A stretch of 12,845 nucleotides of DNA from Methanobacteriota archaeon. GTDB lineage: Archaea > Thermoplasmatota > Thermoplasmata > RBG-16-68-12. Positions 1 through 6,875 of this stretch are shown in pieces (the stretch's first letter is position 1; each line of letters starts with the position of its first letter). The stretch spans positions 599 to 13,443 of the forward strand of contig VBLV01000121.1 in NCBI GenBank assembly GCA_005879045.1. The letters are read 5' to 3'. The position numbers and the translations under genes were made by a program. Below the pieces are notes generated by a model. It was not told the origin of the DNA. It saw nothing but the letters and a program-made list of their open reading frames with translations, and did no database searches.

Positions 1-467
1 ACGAGGCGAACTGGCGGGCCCATTTGGAGTCGACAGGTCCGGAAATCTGGGAGCAGACCGCCGGGACGATCACGCACTTCGTGGCCTGCCTCGGGACGAC
101 GGGGACCTTCGTCGGCGTGGGACGCTATCTGAGAAAAATGAATCGGACGGTGCGTCTGGTCGGGGTGCAACCGGACAGTCCGCTCCACGGCCTCGAAGGC
201 GTGAAGCATCTCGAGACGTCCGTCGTCCCGGGAATCTGGGATCCGAGCCTGGCGGACGAGATGATGTTCGTCGCGACGGAGGACGCTCAGGCCGCGAGTC
301 GACGGCTTGCACGGGCAGAAGGGATCCTCGTCGGCACGTCGAGCGGCGCGGCGTTCGACGCGGCGTTGCGCCTCGCGGAGCGAATCCGCGAAGGCGTGAT
401 CGTGACCGTCTTTCCGGATGCGGGAACGAACTACCTCGGGGAGCGGTATTGGGAGGAGGCACCGTGA
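1..467 (+). CDS. cysM: Cysteine synthase, CysM type (PLP-dependent), 5'-truncated by window edge
   Basis: This is the C-terminal part (about 155 residues) of a fold-type II PLP enzyme that makes cysteine from an activated serine and a sulfur donor. The frame is already open at base 3 and reads EANWRAHLESTGPEIWEQT, a stretch that is internal in cysteine synthases, so the true start lies left of the window and the TTG at 24 is not the start. Family landmarks visible are the glycine-rich GTTGTFVGVGRYLR, GVQPDSPLHGLEGVKH, the SSGAA serine loop expected near the PLP pyridine nitrogen, and the final FPDAGTNYLGERYW. The stop (465-467) overlaps the start of the JAMM protease gene as GTGA, implying co-translation. 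Linkage to a JAMM protease and a CysO-like carrier points to a CysM that uses a protein thiocarboxylate rather than free sulfide. The family is clear; the sulfur donor is inferred from the neighbours. Confidence 0.9.
   Translation, partial: EANWRAHLESTGPEIWEQTAGTITHFVACLGTTGTFVGVGRYLRKMNRTVRLVGVQPDSPLHGLEGVKHLETSVVPGIWDPSLADEMMFVATEDAQAASRRLARAEGILVGTSSGAAFDAALRLAERIREGVIVTVFPDAGTNYLGERYWEEAP
452..459 (+). promoter_or_regulatory. Shine-Dalgarno site for the JAMM protease gene
   Basis: GGAGGAGG lies inside the last codons of the cysteine synthase gene, 4 nt before the GTG at 464. It decides the start: the upstream in-frame TTG at 449 has no such site and would overlap more. With the GTGA stop/start overlap it suggests translational coupling. 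Confidence 0.65.
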
Positions 468-883
468 CGATCGAGATCCCGAAGGCGGTCCTTCAAGCGA
501 TTCAGGATCATGCGCGCGAGGCGTACCCGGAGGAATGCTGCGGTTTTCTCATCGGCCATTCGAGTGCTCCGCGGCGCGTCGTGGAATCGCGCCGGGCCCG
601 GAACGTCGCGACGGAGAACCGGTCGCGGCGATACATGGTCGATCCGCTTGAGCTGCTCCGGGTCGACGACGATGTGCGAAAGAAAAACCTCGATCTCATC
701 GGGATCTACCACAGCCATCCGGACCATCCCGCCGCTCCCTCCGAGTACGATCGATCCCGTGCGGCGAGTTGGTTGTCGTACGTGATCGCCAGTGTCGTGG
801 ACCGACATCCGAAGGACGTGACCGCATGGCAGTTCGACGAGGCCACCGGATCGTTCCGACCCGAAGAGATTGTCTATCGTTGA
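464..883 (+). CDS. JAMM/MPN metalloprotease, Mec-like (CysO-cysteine peptidase / desampylase family)
   Basis: This is a 139-residue single-domain zinc protease of the JAB1/MPN/Mov34 family. The full JAMM signature is present: Glu24 in PEECCGFLIG, then His83-x-His85, seven residues, Ser93 and Asp96 in YHSHPDHPAAPSEYD. Members of this size act on bonds that follow the Gly-Gly of ubiquitin-like proteins. Mycobacterial Mec frees cysteine from CysO-Cys, and haloarchaeal HvJAMM1 removes SAMPs. GTG at 464 is chosen as start because a strong Shine-Dalgarno site sits just before it and it overlaps the cysteine synthase stop. Downstream, after 103 bp with its own promoter-like box, lies the gene for a ubiquitin-like/E1/rhodanese fusion that carries an internal Gly-Gly. 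The context favours a Mec-like role in cysteine synthesis, with a possible second role in cutting the fused carrier. Which substrate dominates cannot be told from sequence. Confidence 0.9.
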   Translation: MTIEIPKAVLQAIQDHAREAYPEECCGFLIGHSSAPRRVVESRRARNVATENRSRRYMVDPLELLRVDDDVRKKNLDLIGIYHSHPDHPAAPSEYDRSRAASWLSYVIASVVDRHPKDVTAWQFDEATGSFRPEEIVYR

Positions 884-951
884 ACCCCGCCCCGCATCTC
901 CGCCCGATGCTCTCTCTCGGGATTCGGATGCGCAGCACCCGCGGGACGAAC

Positions 952-962
952 CTTAAGTATAA
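952..962 (+). promoter_or_regulatory. TATA-like box upstream of the Ubl-E1-rhodanese gene
   Basis: CTTAAGTATAA is the only AT-rich run in the 103-bp gap and ends 24 nt before the ATG at 987. The spacing fits an archaeal TATA box driving a leaderless or nearly leaderless mRNA. No Shine-Dalgarno site is seen before the ATG. Confidence 0.55.
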
Positions 963-986
963 CACCGTCATGGAACAAGTACGATC

Positions 987-2441
987 ATGCCTGCGGTCCG
1001 AATCGTCATTCCCACGGCCCTTCGTCAATACGCGGCGAACCACGATGCGGTGGAGGTCGAGGCCGAAAGCGTTGAACAGGCGCTCGGCGACCTCGTGGAC
1101 CGCTTCGACCAGCTTCGACGTCATCTGTACGCGGACAACGGCCGACTGCGAAATTTCGTGAACGTCTACGTCAACGAGGAGGACATCCGCTACCTCGAGA
1201 AGGATGCGACCCCCCTCAAGGAAGGCGACACGATCTCGATCGTCCCGAGCATCGCGGGCGGTTCGTTTTCGCTCATGGATCGGCTCGGAGCGAAGCGGAA
1301 GGACGTCCTCATGCCGGCGGAAATCAAACGCTATTCCCGGCACCTGATCCTGCCCGAAGTCGGCATGGCGGGGCAGTTGAAGCTCAAACAGTCGTCCGCC
1401 CTGATCATCGGCGCCGGTGGGCTCGGCGTGCCGCTCACGCAATACCTCGGCGCCGCCGGCGTGGGCCGTCTCGGGATCGTCGACTTCGACGTCATCGACG
1501 AGACGAACCTGCAGCGCCAGGTGCTGTACGGGACGAAGGACGTCGGCCGCAAGAAGATCGAGGTTGCGAAAGAACGGGTCGCCCAGATCAACCCGAACGT
1601 CGACGTGCAGACTTACGAGACGCACCTGACCTCGGACAATGCGCTTGAGATCCTGAAAGACTACGACGTCGTCATCGATGGGACGGACAACTTCCCGACC
1701 CGGTACCTCGTGAACGACGCGACAGTCCTCCTGAACAAGCCGAACGTCTACGGATCGATCTTCCGTTTCGAAGGCCAGGCGAGCGTCTTCCACGCGGCCA
1801 AGGGCCCTTGCTATCGCTGTCTGTATGCGGAACCGCCGCCGCCCGGCCTCGTTCCGTCGTGCGCGGAGGGCGGCGTGCTTGGCGTGCTCCCGGGCATTAT
1901 CGGATCGATCCAGGCGATCGAGGCGATCAAACTTCTCCTCGGGAGGGGCGACACGCTCATCGGTCGTCTCCTCGTCTTCGACGCACTGCGGATGAAGTTC
2001 CGGGAGCTCAAGCTGCGTAAGAATCCCGAGTGCCCAATCTGCGGATTGAATCCGACCATCAAGGAACTCATCGATTACGAGGAGTTTTGCGGCTTGCGAG
2101 GCCCGTCAGAGCAGGTCGGGGAGGAGTTCCAGATCACGGTCGCGGAGCTGAAGCAGAAGATCGACGGGGGCAAAGCGGTCGTCCTCCTCGACGTTCGAGA
2201 GCCGATGGAATGGGAGATTGCTCGCCTGGACAAGGCGGTCTTAATGCCGGTGGCCCAGGTTCCTTCCCGAGTGAACGAGCTTAGCACGGCCGACGAAATC
2301 GTCGTCTATTGCAAGACCGGCGTCCGCTCGGGCCGGATCACGAACTTCCTCCGGGAGATTGGGTTCCGTAAAGCCAAGAACCTCGTCGGCGGGATCGACG
2401 AATGGGCGGAGAAGATCGAGCCCGAGATGGCCCGATATTAG
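987..2441 (+). CDS. Fusion: ThiS/MoaD/CysO-like carrier + MoeB/ThiF-type E1 + rhodanese
   Basis: The 484-residue protein has three domains. Residues 1-92 form a ThiS/MoaD-type beta-grasp domain ending in IVPSIAGG, with Gly91-Gly92. Residues about 110-355 form a MoeB/ThiF-type adenylating enzyme: nucleotide loop GAGGLG (142-147), DETNLQRQ (171-178), DGTDN (231-235), zinc cysteine pairs CYRC (275, 278) and CPIC (349, 352), and Cys292 in SCAEGGVLG at the usual catalytic-cysteine site. Residues about 382-480 form a rhodanese with active-site loop CKTGVRS (Cys442). E1-rhodanese proteins of this kind (MoeZ, MOCS3/Uba4) adenylate the carrier C-terminus and deliver sulfur to give a thiocarboxylate. 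Here the carrier sits on the same chain with Ser93-Phe94 after Gly-Gly, so it must be freed before it can be activated, or another free carrier must be used. The products could serve cysteine, molybdopterin or tRNA thiolation; the CysM and JAMM neighbours favour cysteine. Confidence 0.93.
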   Translation: MPAVRIVIPTALRQYAANHDAVEVEAESVEQALGDLVDRFDQLRRHLYADNGRLRNFVNVYVNEEDIRYLEKDATPLKEGDTISIVPSIAGGSFSLMDRLGAKRKDVLMPAEIKRYSRHLILPEVGMAGQLKLKQSSALIIGAGGLGVPLTQYLGAAGVGRLGIVDFDVIDETNLQRQVLYGTKDVGRKKIEVAKERVAQINPNVDVQTYETHLTSDNALEILKDYDVVIDGTDNFPTRYLVNDATVLLNKPNVYGSIFRFEGQASVFHAAKGPCYRCLYAEPPPPGLVPSCAEGGVLGVLPGIIGSIQAIEAIKLLLGRGDTLIGRLLVFDALRMKFRELKLRKNPECPICGLNPTIKELIDYEEFCGLRGPSEQVGEEFQITVAELKQKIDGGKAVVLLDVREPMEWEIARLDKAVLMPVAQVPSRVNELSTADEIVVYCKTGVRSGRITNFLREIGFRKAKNLVGGIDEWAEKIEPEMARY

Positions 2442-2460: not shown

Positions 2461-2485
2461 CTTGCAGGAACTTTGCCGGATCTCC

Positions 2486-2803
2486 ATGCCGCTCGATCCG
2501 GGAACGGTGCATCGCTTCGCCATGCTCGAACGGGCGGTCAAATCGTTCGCGAGGACCGGCCGTTTCGATGAATCGCTCAAGCTCGTCGAGGAGATGCTCG
2601 AGATCGCCCCGGAGGATGCGGGCCTTTCAAAGTTGAAGGCGCGCGTTGCGGCCGAATTGGTCCATCAAGCCATCCAGGCGCAGAAGATCGCCGCCGCGAC
2701 CCAGATCCTCGGCCTCGTCGAGACGAAGATTCCCCCGGCGCACCTCGGCCCGACCGAAAACGAACTCCTTGGGAAAGCCAAAGAACACCTGTACTCGATG
2801 TGA
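2486..2803 (+). CDS. Small helical protein, TPR-like, function unknown
   Basis: This is a 105-residue soluble protein. Its first half reads like one tetratricopeptide helix pair (about residues 10-45: MLERAVKSFARTGRFDESLKLVEEMLEIAPED), followed by more predicted helix containing KLKARVAAELVHQAIQ and a short C-terminal part. No catalytic motif, signal peptide or membrane segment is seen. The ATG at 2486 is preferred because a TATA-like box lies 25 nt upstream; an in-frame TTG at 2462 falls within the presumed promoter and an internal ATG at 2522 would remove the first helix. It lies between the sulfur-carrier fusion and a DUF1684 gene, each apparently with its own promoter, so the context does not assign a job. 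A scaffold or adaptor role is only a guess from the TPR-like look. Confidence 0.7.
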   Translation: MPLDPGTVHRFAMLERAVKSFARTGRFDESLKLVEEMLEIAPEDAGLSKLKARVAAELVHQAIQAQKIAAATQILGLVETKIPPAHLGPTENELLGKAKEHLYSM

Positions 2804-2813
2804 TTCGCACAGA

Positions 2814-2819
2814 TTTATG
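2814..2819 (+). promoter_or_regulatory. TATA-like box for the DUF1684 gene
   Basis: TTTATG within AGATTTATGG sits just after the previous stop and ends 25 nt before the ATG at 2845. It supports that ATG over the in-frame ATT/ATG-region codons from 2800, which overlap the upstream gene. Confidence 0.45.
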
Positions 2820-2844
2820 GCGGACGGTGAGGCTCGGAACCGCC

Positions 2845-3498
2845 ATGTCGCCTAAAGGTTCCGCCGAGGACTATGTGAAGGAAATCGAGGCGATGCGTCG
2901 AGAGCAAGATTTCTTCTTCAGGGAGGACGCCGAGTCCCCGATTCCCCACGAGCTCCGCCACAAGTTTGAGGGGCTCGCGTATTTTCCTCCGGATCCGAAA
3001 TACCGGGTCCCCGCCAAGCTGATCAAAGACCCGAATCCCCAACGGGTCATCCTCGCCACTTCCAAGGGAGTTCCGCGGGAGATGACTCGGTATGGCGTCC
3101 TCGAGTTCGAGATCGACGGCACAAAGCAACGACTCGCCGCGTTCAAGTCGGTCCCTCAACCAGGCCATCACCACGCGGACGAGAGCCTCTTCGTCCCGTT
3201 CCGTGACGCGACGTCCGGCAAGGAGACGTACGGGGCGAGTCGATACCTCGACATCGAAGAACAGCCGACGGATGAGTACGTGATCGACTTCAACCTGGCG
3301 TACAACCCATACTGCGCGTACAGCGACGACTACGTGTGCCCATTCCCGCCGCGGGAGAACTGGCTTTCGGTGCCGATTCGCGCCGGCGAGAAGAATTTCC
3401 CGCTAGCTCACTCGGGTTCGTCGCGCATCACGAGTCGGTCCCAACGAGCCAGTCGAGTCGCCGTTCGCGATTCGATAGGATTTCTTCTGGGCCTTTGA
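2845..3498 (+). CDS. DUF1684 family protein
   Basis: The 217-residue protein carries the family's recognisable blocks: FPPDPKYRV near residue 50, GVLEFEIDG, a region ending ESLFVPFRDATSGKETYGASRYLD, and FNLAYNPYCAYSDDYVCPFPPRENWL followed by PIRAGEKNF. DUF1684 proteins occur in archaea and bacteria and have no firmly established activity known to me; the fold is thought to be a small beta-rich domain. No signal peptide is visible. ATG 2845 is the start supported by the upstream TATA-like box. The family usually ends soon after the IRAGEKNF block. Here about 30 further residues (SGSSRITSRSQRAS and on), serine/arginine-rich and unlike the family, run 71 bp into the convergent GTPase gene. This tail is probably a non-conserved read-through or reflects a lost stop. 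Family call firm, function unknown. Confidence 0.85.
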   Translation: MSPKGSAEDYVKEIEAMRREQDFFFREDAESPIPHELRHKFEGLAYFPPDPKYRVPAKLIKDPNPQRVILATSKGVPREMTRYGVLEFEIDGTKQRLAAFKSVPQPGHHHADESLFVPFRDATSGKETYGASRYLDIEEQPTDEYVIDFNLAYNPYCAYSDDYVCPFPPRENWLSVPIRAGEKNFPLAHSGSSRITSRSQRASRVAVRDSIGFLLGL

Positions 3499-4258
3499 AG
3501 TCCTGTTCGACGACCGCGAGCCTCTCGATGAGGGTCCGGATCGCGTCCGTCGTCGGTGCGCGGACATCGAGCCCGGCGAGACCGAGCTGACGCTTCACGA
3601 TCGGCATGCCAGTCTCCACGCCGCCCAGGTGGTAGCAGAAGTCCGTCATGATCTTGTCCGTCACCCGAATCAGGCGGTCGACGGGTTCCTGCGGGGGCGT
3701 CACCAGCGCGATCCGTCGAATCGGATGGCCGGCTGCTTGCAGGATCTGCTCCCCGAGCGCCTTGAACGACGACTCGACCCGGTCCCCCGTCTTCGCACTC
3801 GTCAGGATCCCGGGACACGAATATTTCTGCGTGAGGAAGTACAGGTACTCCTCGGCCCAGACCCGATCCGGGACGAGGTCGGACTTGTTCCCCGCGAAGA
3901 CCGTGGGGATTCGCCCCGCGAGCCTCCAGACGGCCGGGATCCAGTAGTCCTCGAGGGCCCGGCGGCTCTCGTCGTTCGTGGCGTCGTACACGAGCAGGAC
4001 CCCCTGGGCTCCTTTGATCGCCGTCTCCTGCACCCCGCTGTATCCCTTCTGCCCGAGGACGTCCCAGATCTGCATGACCATCTCGACCTCGGCCAGGGGC
4101 GATCCGATGCTCACGCTTCGCTTCGACACTTTCGTGCCGACCGTCGTGATGTAGTCGTCCGAATACTGGTCGACGACGAACCGACGGACGAGCGAGGTCT
4201 TCCCCACTCCGCCGTCGCCCAGAAGGACGACCTTCGATTTCATTGGATCTCGCGGCAT
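3428..4258 (-). CDS. Rab/Ras-like small GTPase with an extra C-terminal helical domain
   Basis: This 276-residue protein has a complete small-GTPase core in residues 7-180: G1 GDGGVGKTS (14-22), switch-I threonine in YITTVG (about 38-39), G3 WDVLGQ (Asp66, Gly69, Gln70), G4 NKSD (124-127) and G5 TSAK (153-156). The Rab/Ras-type DxxGQ glutamine suggests normal GTP hydrolysis. After the core come about 90 residues, mostly helical, including DKIMTDFCYHLGG and PIVKRQLGLAGLDV, which I cannot assign; they replace the prenylated tail of eukaryotic Rabs, and no lipidation motif is seen. Start ATG 4258 is the first of two close methionines; MKSKVVLLGD at 4243 is an equally good start. A possible box ACATTAAGTG lies near 4326-4335. 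The gene is convergent with and overlaps DUF1684 by 71 bp. Partners may include roadblock-domain proteins such as the one at 8137-10161. Confidence 0.9.
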   Translation of the reverse strand: MPRDPMKSKVVLLGDGGVGKTSLVRRFVVDQYSDDYITTVGTKVSKRSVSIGSPLAEVEMVMQIWDVLGQKGYSGVQETAIKGAQGVLLVYDATNDESRRALEDYWIPAVWRLAGRIPTVFAGNKSDLVPDRVWAEEYLYFLTQKYSCPGILTSAKTGDRVESSFKALGEQILQAAGHPIRRIALVTPPQEPVDRLIRVTDKIMTDFCYHLGGVETGMPIVKRQLGLAGLDVRAPTTDAIRTLIERLAVVEQDFKGPEEILSNRERRLDWLVGTDS

Positions 4259-4351: not shown

Positions 4352-4457
4352 CGCGGGGAGGGGGATTTGAACCCCCGGGCGCAGAGCGCACTGGATCCTC
4401 GCGGACGGCCTTTCGTCCTTAGCAATCCAGCGCCCTACCAGGCTAGGCGATCCCCGC
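4352..4457 (-). tRNA. tRNA-Ser (anticodon GCT) with a 23-nt intron
   Basis: Read on the minus strand, acceptor GCGGGGA (4457-4451) pairs with TCCCCGC (4359-4353), followed by unpaired G73 (4352); no CCA is encoded. The anticodon stem is CTGGA/TCCAG, the loop is TTGCTA plus A, and the anticodon GCT is at 4423-4421. A long variable arm GCGC-TCT-GCGC and T arm GGGGG-TTCAAAT-CCCCC identify a class II tRNA; with G73 this is serine. A 23-nt intron (4397-4419) interrupts the gene between positions 37 and 38. The precursor folds as a classic bulge-helix-bulge: central helix TTGC/GCGA, 3-nt bulges TAA and GGA, and inner helix GGAC/GTCC. The archaeal splicing endonuclease would cut within the two bulges. 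Confidence 0.95.
4397..4419 (-). other. tRNA-Ser intron (canonical 37/38 position)
   Basis: This is the 23-nt insertion in the anticodon loop. Cuts within bulges TA^A and GG^A leave the normal 7-nt loop TTGCTAA. The remaining intron forms a GGAC/GTCC hairpin with an 8-nt loop. Confidence 0.9.
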
Positions 4458-4708
4458 AGCCGGCGCCTATCAAGGCACAACCTATAAACGCTTTCGGCGC
4501 CACGGTCCGCTCTCCTTTGGAACACATGAACGAGGTTCCAAAATCGTCTTGGTCGCGGGCTACTGCGTATACGGAAGGCCGTCGCGACGCAGCATTATTA
4601 TGCATGATGTCCTCCCGCTCTCGGCAAGCCCCGATCCCCGAACTAGATCCAGACACTCAGTCAGCGACTTGGCCAAGAACCCTGGATCGTGACGGGCCAT
4701 TTGCGGAC
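4458..4708. other. Intergenic region between tRNA-Ser and otsA
   Basis: Apart from the tRNA promoter this 251-bp stretch has no gene I can support. One AT-rich run, CATTATTATGC near 4593-4603, is a possible TATA box for otsA, which would leave a leader of about 80 nt. A plus-strand reading frame is open across it from inside the tRNA, but its residues do not resemble the start of trehalose-phosphate synthases. Confidence 0.4.
4483..4488 (-). promoter_or_regulatory. TATA box of tRNA-Ser
   Basis: TTTATA on the minus strand (plus-strand TATAAA) ends 26 nt before the tRNA 5' end. This is the spacing expected for an archaeal box A with transcription starting at or just before the mature tRNA. Confidence 0.75.
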
Positions 4709-6184
4709 ATGACTCTCATCCTCGTCTCGAACCGTCTTCCGGTCACCGTTCGGAGAATCGGGAACCGCCTCGACGTGCAGCCGAATCCCGGCGGAGTCGC
4801 GGCGGGCCTCGCCTCCTTTCATCGAGAATTGCAGGCTCGCTGGTTCGGATGGCCCGGCTCCATCGCCCCAGGCGAATCCAAGCAAGTCACCGCCCGACTC
4901 GAGAAAGAGTTCGATTGCGTTCCCGTGATTCTTCCTTCCACCCTGGCCCGCCCGTACTACGCCGGCTTTTCGAATGGGACCCTGTGGCCGTTGTTTCACT
5001 CCTTTTCCACGTACGCGAGATACTCGGCCTCGGAATGGGAGGCGTATCGCACCGTCAACGCGAAGTTCGCGGACGCGATCGTGCAAGCCCTCCGCCCAAA
5101 GGATCAGCTGTGGATCCACGACTACCATCTCCTCCTCCTGCCTCGCTTGATCCGCGACCGGGTTCCCGAGGCCCGGGTCGGATTCTTCCTCCACATCCCG
5201 TTCCCGCCGTACGATGTGTTCCGTCTCTTGCCGTGGCACCGGGAAATCCTTCAGGGCATGCTCGGTGCCGACCTGATCGGCTTCCACACCTACGACTACG
5301 CCCGCGCATTCCTTGGAAGCCTCCTGCGGGATCTGGGCCTCGACAATCGGATTGGCACGATCGTCACGGGCCATCGGGCGGTGCAAGTGGACGTGTTCCC
5401 CCTCGGGGTCGATGTCGCGAAGTTCAATTCGACTCCGATCGGTCCCTCCGCCGGCCGTTCGATCGCACGCCTGAGGAAAGGGCTGGAACCGTCGAAGCTC
5501 CTCTTCTCGATCTCCCGTCTCGACTACACGAAGGGCATCCCAGAAGGGCTCGACGCGTTCGGACGCTTCCTCGAACGGCACCCGGAGTGGCGTCGGAAGA
5601 TCACCTACCTCCTCGCCGTGGTCCCGTCGCGCGAGCGAGTGGCCGAGTACGCTCGGCTGAAACGGGCGATCGACGAGCGCGTCGGCCGCATCAACAGCCG
5701 GTACAGCACGATCGCGTGGTCGCCGATTCGATATGTGTACCGCCAACTCGACTTCGACGAGCTGATCGCCCTCTACCGGGTGAGCGACGTGGCGATCATC
5801 ACCCCTCTGCGAGACGGGATGAACCTCATCGCGAAGGAGTACGTCGCGGCGAAGCAGGAGCCACGAGGCGTCCTGATCCTCAGCGAAATGGCCGGGGCAT
5901 CGAAGGAGCATCGTGAACCCGAACGACGTGGAGGATGTCGTGGGCGCGATCCATCGGGCGCTCACGATGCCCTTGGAGGAGCAGGCCTGGCGAATCCGGG
6001 CGATGCAGGACCGGCTCCGACGCTACGACGCTCGGACGTGGGCGATGCGGTTCCTCGAGCGCCTCGACGATGCCGTCCGGCTGTCCGAGGATCTCACTTC
6101 GAAGCGGCTGTCGGACGCACACCGGAAGGAGATCCGCCAAGCGTACCGGAAGGCGGCTCGCCGGCTGTTGCTCTTCGACTATGA
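4709..6184 (+). pseudogene. otsA: Trehalose-6-phosphate synthase (GT20), frameshifted near 5908; first part of an OtsA-OtsB fusion
   Basis: The enzyme joins UDP- or ADP-glucose to glucose-6-phosphate to give trehalose-6-phosphate. Residues 1-400 (to 5908) are a nearly complete GT20 domain: start MTLILVSNRLPV, GGVAAGL loop (28-34), HDYHLLLLP, GFFLHIPFPP, ISRLDYTKGIPEGL and the donor-binding TPLRDGMNLIAKEY. ATG 4709 fits the family's usual start. After LSEMAGASKE the frame continues to 6184 with an arginine/proline-rich tail unlike the family. The expected next residues, IVNPNDVEDVV, resume in another frame at 5910. Compared with E. coli OtsA (AGAANELTSALIVNP), about five residues are missing at the join, equal to about 14 nt. 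The true reading is probably one fused synthase-phosphatase broken by a small deletion, real or an assembly error. If real, the synthase loses its C-terminal helices and may be impaired. Confidence 0.85.
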
Positions 6185-6875
6185 CGGGACCCTCGTCTCC
6201 TTATCGGTTCAACGGGAGACCGCGCTCCCAGACGACCGCGTCATGGGGATCCTGAAAGGACTCGTGTCCGATTCGACGAATCACGTCGTGCTCGTGAGCG
6301 GCCGGCCGCGACGGGATTTGGAGCCCTGGTTCGGGGAGCTCCCGTTGACGCTCATCGCGGAACACGGCGCCTGGGTCCGCGACCGCGGGGATCGGGAGTG
6401 GCGGTCCACGCTGCCACTCGAGGAAGGATGGAAGGTCCGCGTGCGACCGGTGATGGAGCGTTTCCTCGATCAGGTCCCAGGCTCGTCCCTCGAGGAGAAA
6501 GATTTCTCAATCGCGTGGCACTATCGTGCGGCGGATGTGGAGTCCGGGACCCTCGCGGCGAAGGACCTCGTCGACATCCTGACCACCCTGACCGCGAACT
6601 TCGATCTTCAGGTCCTGCCGGGGAACAAGGTCGTCGAGATCCGCCGCGGCGGGGTGAACAAAGGCACTCACTTCGCGACGCATCTGGCCCGCGAACCGTG
6701 GGACTTTATCCTGGCGGCGGGCGACGACTGGACGGACGAGGCGTTGTTCGCTGCGCTCCCTCCGAGTGCGTTCTCCATCCGGGTTGGAATCACGGCGTCG
6801 TCCGCCCGGCTCAACGTGGAGAGCGTGGCTGCGATCCTCGACCTGCTCGAGTCGCTGGTTACCGCCACGCGGTGA
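5913..6875 (+). CDS. otsB: Trehalose-6-phosphate phosphatase (HAD superfamily) with an N-terminal remnant of OtsA
   Basis: Residues 1-60 from GTG 5913 (NPNDVEDVVGAIHRALTMPLEE to RTWAMRFLERL) are the displaced C-terminal end of the OtsA domain. From about residue 84 a full OtsB-type HAD phosphatase follows: motif I LFDYDGTL with nucleophile Asp89 and Asp91, motif II LVSGR, then AEHGAW, GVNKGTH with the conserved lysine, and the acidic GDDWTDEALF. It removes phosphate from trehalose-6-phosphate to give trehalose, a compatible solute and stress protectant. Bases just before the GTG read AAGGAG (5903-5908) with 4 nt spacing, which could work as a Shine-Dalgarno site and allow separate translation of this part despite the frameshift. 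The stop at 6873-6875 is normal. The phosphatase domain looks intact, so selection has kept it or the break is recent or artefactual. Confidence 0.88.
   Translation: MNPNDVEDVVGAIHRALTMPLEEQAWRIRAMQDRLRRYDARTWAMRFLERLDDAVRLSEDLTSKRLSDAHRKEIRQAYRKAARRLLLFDYDGTLVSLSVQRETALPDDRVMGILKGLVSDSTNHVVLVSGRPRRDLEPWFGELPLTLIAEHGAWVRDRGDREWRSTLPLEEGWKVRVRPVMERFLDQVPGSSLEEKDFSIAWHYRAADVESGTLAAKDLVDILTTLTANFDLQVLPGNKVVEIRRGGVNKGTHFATHLAREPWDFILAAGDDWTDEALFAALPPSAFSIRVGITASSARLNVESVAAILDLLESLVTATR

Follow-up and report, generated by a model that had tools for sequence, protein, structure and literature searches.

A CysM, JAMM protease and carrier-E1-rhodanese module behind SUF genes in Thermoplasmata, with a probable role in cysteine synthesis

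Gene content and conservation of the module

The 12,845-nucleotide stretch of DNA analysed here (the window, C46:599-13443) comes from a 1.70-Mb draft genome of the Thermoplasmata (319 contigs, 69% complete) and begins with three genes in a row on the + strand, encoding the end of a CysM-type cysteine synthase, a JAMM metalloprotease of 139 amino acids (aa) and, about 100 bp further on, a 484-aa chain in which a sulfur carrier, an E1 and a rhodanese are fused (Table 1). This adjacency, claimed in an earlier note on the same DNA, was borne out by Pfam matches and by completion of CysM from the contig. The PF00291 match in the window (3-467, +) covers the C-terminal half of CysM, the gene being cut by the window edge, and the contig holds the complete frame of about 303 aa (C46:154-1065) with the pyridoxal phosphate (PLP) motif NPGGSVKDR and, within the CysM region directly before the window start, a short run of N. 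The overlap between the CysM end and the protease start was likewise as noted. Among at least 8000 scored homologues of the fusion the best 120 were near full length and 119 of them had all three Pfam domains; two named homologues are from a Thermoplasmata archaeon and the nearest named relative, with 98% identity in the fusion, is of soil origin.

The catalytic residues are intact. In JAMM the active-site residues H83, H85, S93 and D96 are invariant and E24 is kept in 80 of the 81 aligned relatives, in keeping with the note's claim of an intact motif. Across 37 aligned fusion chains G91, G92, the E1 zinc cysteines C275, C278, C349 and C352 and the rhodanese C442 were all invariant, as had been claimed for the cysteines. 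In an AlphaFold2 model of the fusion (mean predicted local distance difference test, pLDDT, 84.4) the carrier, E1 and rhodanese were confidently modelled while residues 90-105, which contain Gly91-Gly92 and linker, were disordered (pLDDT <50). The solved-structure relatives of the carrier include CysO from its complex with CysM (3dwg). The ThiS-like fold was therefore correctly described as ending in Gly-Gly in so far as the pair ends the carrier domain, but it is not a protein end, since the linker and the E1 come after it.

Table 1. Features of the module in the window, followed by the UFM1-like operon loci of related genomes
Feature	Position	Strand	Evidence
CysM-type PLP cysteine synthase, C-terminal part	1..467	+	PF00291, TIGR01138 best families
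GTGA overlap, CysM stop and JAMM start	464..467	+	sequence
JAMM/Prok-JAB metalloprotease, 139 aa, Mec-like, GTG start	464..883	+	PF14464 98.9 bits
JAMM active-site stretch HxHx7Sx2D (H83, H85, S93, D96)	710..751	+	81/81 aligned relatives
Archaeal promoter-like element: BRE-like CGAAC, TATA-like CTTAAGTAT	945..968	+	upstream of fusion
484-aa fusion: ThiS/MoaD-like carrier, ThiF/MoeB-type E1, rhodanese	987..2441	+	Pfam; conserved across phyla
Carrier domain, residues 1-92	987..1262	+	PF02597 (ThiS match 8-92); structure relatives 4n6e_B, CysO 3dwg_C
Gly91-Gly92, predicted cleavage after Gly92	1257..1262	+	invariant in 64/64 fused chains
Flexible linker, carrier to E1	1263..1322	+	variable length and sequence; pLDDT <50 at residues 90-105
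E1 adenylation domain, residues 116-350; zinc cysteines C275, C278 and C349 (C352 just beyond)	1332..2036	+	PF00899 276.6 bits
Rhodanese domain, residues 384-475; persulfide Cys442 at 2310-2312	2136..2411	+	PF00581 66.6 bits
UFM1-like operon loci	L167:1212-2681 (G035); L174:2065-2328 (G050); L062:4598-6174 (G019); L066 (G020); L067 (G021)

The presence of genes was counted over 61 related genomes, in 23 of which the fusion was found either whole or as pieces including the carrier (16 of the 22 genomes in the window's family and seven outside it). In two of the three same-genus genomes with no fusion match (G016 and G001) an operon-type CysM ends the contig, such that the fusion may be absent from the assembly only. 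Across the phylum, fusion matches at E 1e-100 or better were patchy, being detected in 16/145 genomes with 10 extending into the carrier. The earlier note had made its reading depend on conservation of the gene order and fusion in relatives, and both were found to be conserved. After removal of eight duplicate records there were 25 archaeal loci, 21 with at least 2 kb of upstream sequence, of which 19 had CysM, 17 had JAMM within 3 kb and 16 had both genes ahead of the fusion in the same orientation; the remaining four, with less upstream sequence, also had both genes. The 69 bacterial loci span Acidobacteriota, Armatimonadota, Gemmatimonadota, Chloroflexota, a Paenibacillus and others, and in those with 2 kb upstream (n = 61) CysM preceded the fusion in 50 and both CysM and JAMM did so in 47. 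The order CysM-JAMM-fusion was kept down to 53% fusion identity and, recurring as it does across archaeal and bacterial phyla, the arrangement is more than chance. The module does lie in an archaeon, as the note said, but module and fusion alike are common in bacteria.

What is new here is that in archaea the module follows the SUF iron-sulfur (Fe-S) genes. SufS or SufU was found within 1 kb upstream of CysM on the same strand at 20 of the 22 archaeal loci whose sequence extends upstream of CysM vs 1/51 bacterial loci, the queries being archaeal SUF proteins such that distant SUF genes can escape detection. In one relative (G014) the gene order is SufB/D, SufU, SufD, SufS, SufU, CysM, JAMM, fusion, with SufS and the second SufU scoring over curated cut-offs, and the window's own contig starts inside the second SufU. 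Sited behind the SUF genes, CysM and JAMM are probably carried on the SUF transcript. The fusion is preceded by a predicted promoter-like element of its own, with a part resembling a B recognition element (BRE) and a TATA-like part, in which GAACCTTAAGTA (948-959) is identical in 10/10 close relatives, 32-36 bp before the fusion start codon, with flanks that otherwise differ; because the motif itself served as anchor for aligning these regions, only extra invariant columns count as evidence. In five more distant members of the genus GAACCTTAAGTA is replaced by the variant CCTAAGTA, and neither was seen before the fusion in the two order-level loci compared. With such an element in front of the fusion, the claim that the three genes are regulated as a unit became doubtful and was dropped.

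Predicted release of the carrier and a proposed route to cysteine

Gly91-Gly92 lies inside a 484-aa chain, which would therefore first have to be cut after Gly92. The residue that follows the invariant pair in the 64 fused chains is S in 37, A in nine, R in five, N in five, V in four and another in four, and the stretch from the pair to a fixed E1 column varies from 15 to 50 residues, the shortest being that of L048, in which sequence has apparently been lost. Unfused carriers of the same operon type (n = 22) end exactly at GG in seven cases and have tails of 1-26 residues in 15, which indicates that something trims after GG. The tailed carriers are all bacterial (L081, L084, L088, L090, L101, L114, L116, L118, L119, L125, L128, L130, L136, L146 and L147), several ending in an LRCxCx motif. 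Three changes between the fused and unfused states are needed on the E1 tree. E1 enzymes adenylate a free terminal glycine and JAMM enzymes cleave after such a glycine. That E1 needs a free terminal glycine, yet the invariant GG precedes variable matter, likewise argues for trimming. JAMM was present in the fetched locus for 60/64 fused, 14/15 tailed and 4/7 untailed carriers, a co-occurrence that is suggestive but no test, since the sequences share descent and contig ends truncate some of the loci.

From the conserved sites and by analogy with characterised enzymes, the adjacent JAMM probably also frees the carrier from the fusion. Iyer 2006 (PMC1779556) already proposed the same role for the JAB proteins that accompany fused forms of ThiS/MoaD, and a Deinococcus JAMM is reported to cleave a MoaD-MoaE fusion (cited in PMC11237513). 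In the account of the mycobacterial MoaD-MoaE protein MoaX given in PMC4326299, the carrier likewise stands ahead of its partner with an internal Gly-Gly followed by Ser, and the chain is cut at Gly82-Ser83, the cut being required for activity; in that case the partner is MoaE, the pathway is that of molybdopterin and the protease was left unidentified there.

From these features we infer the chemical steps, the cleavage, the substrate and the supply of cysteine to SufS as follows. JAMM, as the likeliest protease, would cut the 484-aa chain after Gly92 to free the carrier. Cys442 of the rhodanese would take up a persulfide, the E1 would adenylate the C-terminal glycine of the carrier and the sulfur would be passed on to give a carrier thiocarboxylate. 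CysM would use the thiocarboxylate sulfur and an activated serine to form carrier-cysteine, from which JAMM, cutting after Gly-Gly, would release cysteine that may then be supplied to SufS. A loop, HG[LIVM]EGx[KR], is common to 68/73 operon CysMs (residues 217-224 in the G011 protein) and was not seen in four other cysteine-synthase-family genes compared, making it a candidate carrier- or substrate-binding feature.

The formation of cysteine from a protein thiocarboxylate, which the earlier note had put forward, stands as the best reading of the module, by its likeness to CysO/CysM/Mec/MoeZ and by the conservation of the internal Gly-Gly. All four activities of the mycobacterial route are present with an intact-site JAMM next to CysM, but in that route, as described in the relevant passages of PMC3227635, CysO is free and moeZ (Rv3206c) lies apart from cysO and cysM (Rv1335, Rv1336), whereas carrier, E1 and rhodanese here form one chain. 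With GG as residues 91-92 of 484 and no free carrier as encoded, the module works like the CysO route without being a member of it. With regard to subtype 4c of Iyer 2006 (PMC1779556), both of the features tested were found here, the subtype having a carrier, an E1 fused to rhodanese, a JAB protein and a cysteine synthase in one neighbourhood; in its listing the subtype is bacterial only, while the present case is archaeal, with the carrier fused before the E1 and SUF genes upstream.

Cysteine background and alternative explanations

SepCysS was over the cut-off in 0/61 genomes (two of 14 controls being positive), the window's own genome being 69% complete; weak SepCysS matches near the module were identified as SufS. 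PGDH-like genes occur in 56/61 relatives, making phosphoserine plausible, and CysE was over the cut-off in four of the 61 genomes, none of them among the 23 with the fusion. Both findings fit O-phosphoserine, which, as judged from gene content, is more likely than O-acetylserine to be the activated serine. The idea that the genome might have no free carrier or other cysteine genes was not borne out, and a supposed loss of other cysteine routes was rejected, since cystathionine beta-synthase (CBS; 525 bits, cut-off 510) adjoins a Cys/Met-family gene in the window's genome. The same genome also encodes a free carrier of 88 aa with GG at its end, a second E1, which lacks a rhodanese, and MoaE on another contig (C33). 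For these reasons the module is not established as the sole route to cysteine.

Several points weigh against a dedicated thiocarboxylate route. The CBS and adjoining Cys/Met-family genes form a second possible route, and the fusion could serve other carriers, since the free GG carrier, second E1 and MoaE exist. A mutual exclusion of CysE and the fusion was not significant (0/23 vs 4/38, Fisher p 0.29). CysM did not reach the equivalog cut-off of TIGR01138 (362.9 vs 394.2 bits, scored on the G011 protein, which is 88% identical to the window's). Both partners were not upstream at 14/61 bacterial loci with enough upstream sequence, 7 kb upstream of the fusion at L109 are free of JAMM and CysM, and 4/64 fused chains had no JAMM in the fetched stretch. 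SufS consumes cysteine, such that sulfur drawn from the adjoining SufS would make the loop futile.

On balance, and with fair confidence, the locus is read as a self-contained protein-thiocarboxylate cysteine route of bacterial descent, placed behind the SUF genes in a lineage of soil Thermoplasmata. The fusion might instead be a general E1-sulfurtransferase charging free SAMP or MoaD proteins for molybdopterin synthesis or tRNA thiolation, with its own carrier a docking relic and CysM working on free sulfide. The free carrier and MoaE, the MoeB-like NCBIfam names matched by the fusion and the placing of the MoaD-MoeB-rhodanese fusion under molybdopterin synthesis in the passages on it in PMC11237513 are in keeping with this, but a relic would have no need of a Gly-Gly that stays invariant in all 64 chains while the linker next to it varies freely, and with a second E1 in the genome and with CysM and JAMM rather than moa genes as neighbours this role is considered unlikely.

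There is a slim chance that the freed carrier is conjugated to proteins in a sampylation-like system, with JAMM removing it and CysM a bystander or target. Desampylase is the best NCBIfam match of JAMM and the carrier matches SAMP1, yet both scores fall under the curated cut-offs (97.2 vs 130 bits and 51.8 vs 60 bits), which sets the module apart from the SAMP/desampylase system. In a sister genus (g2, see below) a UFM1-like conjugation cassette adjoins the same JAMM and rhodanese; against conjugation, no constant partner is closer than CysM (19/21 archaeal and 50/61 bacterial loci have it upstream) and a rhodanese is required for sulfur transfer rather than conjugation. It is very improbable that the module delivers sulfur directly to Fe-S or other thio-cofactors of the SUF operon with no free cysteine, a role that the SUF genes within 1 kb upstream of CysM at most archaeal loci would suit; 50/51 bacterial loci carry the module without SUF genes upstream and SufS uses cysteine, the product expected from CysM and JAMM.

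Descent of the module, UFM1-like operons and neighbouring genes

An archaeal invention of the module was ruled out, bacterial copies being abundant and the operon type having been described in bacteria, and listed only there, in the relevant part of Iyer 2006 (PMC1779556). In the E1-rhodanese tree, whose root is arbitrary, a single branch (93/89; recovered in 90% of 200 bootstrap trees) sets 24 archaeal sequences (Thermoplasmatota, Nitrososphaerota) apart, with bacterial sequences around them. Among the bacterial sequences used, which are the best 80 of at least 564 confirmed loci and so a sample biased towards the query, the nearest to the archaea was from Omnitrophota (L131; 81/76), followed by a mixed group (86/80), and the Omnitrophota locus likewise has SUF genes before CysM. 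Transfer of the fusion from Acidobacteria was proposed in the corresponding part of a 2024 survey (PMC11237513), an origin neither confirmed nor excluded by these nearest neighbours. The archaea need two changes in the CysM tree and three in the JAMM tree, which suggests that the parts of the module did not all travel together everywhere; in G044 and G055 JAMM lies about 4.4 kb downstream and groups apart from the other archaeal JAMMs. The archaeal MoaD-MoeB-rhodanese fusions that the same survey lists for unclassified Euryarchaeota and Poseidoniales are very probably the identical fusion, but its passages on them assign the clusters to molybdopterin synthesis and do not mention CysM, JAMM or SUF neighbours. 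A literature search found no paper on an archaeal CysM-JAMM-fusion operon, bioRxiv and most subscription journals being outside its reach.

A UFM1-like modifier, a UFC1-family E2 and a UBA5-like E1 are encoded consecutively in archaeal genomes related to that of the window (Table 1), Foldseek and VIA-align having been applied to the UFM1-like protein, whose C-terminus is VG, or VGSC in G050. In two papers UFM1 is described as missing outside eukaryotes. In the sister genus g2 the operon lies behind SUF genes with a JAMM related to the window's, and a related rhodanese is present in G019 and G020. Both the g2 JAMM and the free rhodanese nest within the archaeal clade of the module in the trees, while no fusion was found in the three g2 genomes searched. 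A tentative and somewhat doubtful suggestion is that the locus is a bridge from sulfur-carrier chemistry to UFM1-type conjugation and that the module supplied the processing protease of the archaeal UFM1 system, in which case JAMM, which would free the carrier at Gly-Gly in the window's module, may in g2 process the UFM1-like protein to its mature form at Val-Gly.

Elsewhere in the window, positions 2462-4258 encode a 113-aa protein that matches no Pfam family, a DUF1684 protein and, in the opposite orientation, a Ras-like GTPase. Relatives in the same genus keep these genes next to the module where the fetched sequence extends that far. Positions 4367-6875 encode a trehalose-phosphate synthase and phosphatase, a single open chain in the five relatives compared, which in the window's copy goes out of frame near 5,900, either as a real change or as an assembly error.

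The module would give several families of the Thermoplasmata a concrete cysteine route beside Fe-S cluster assembly, and it raises the question of how an E1 charges a carrier whose C-terminus sits within its own chain.

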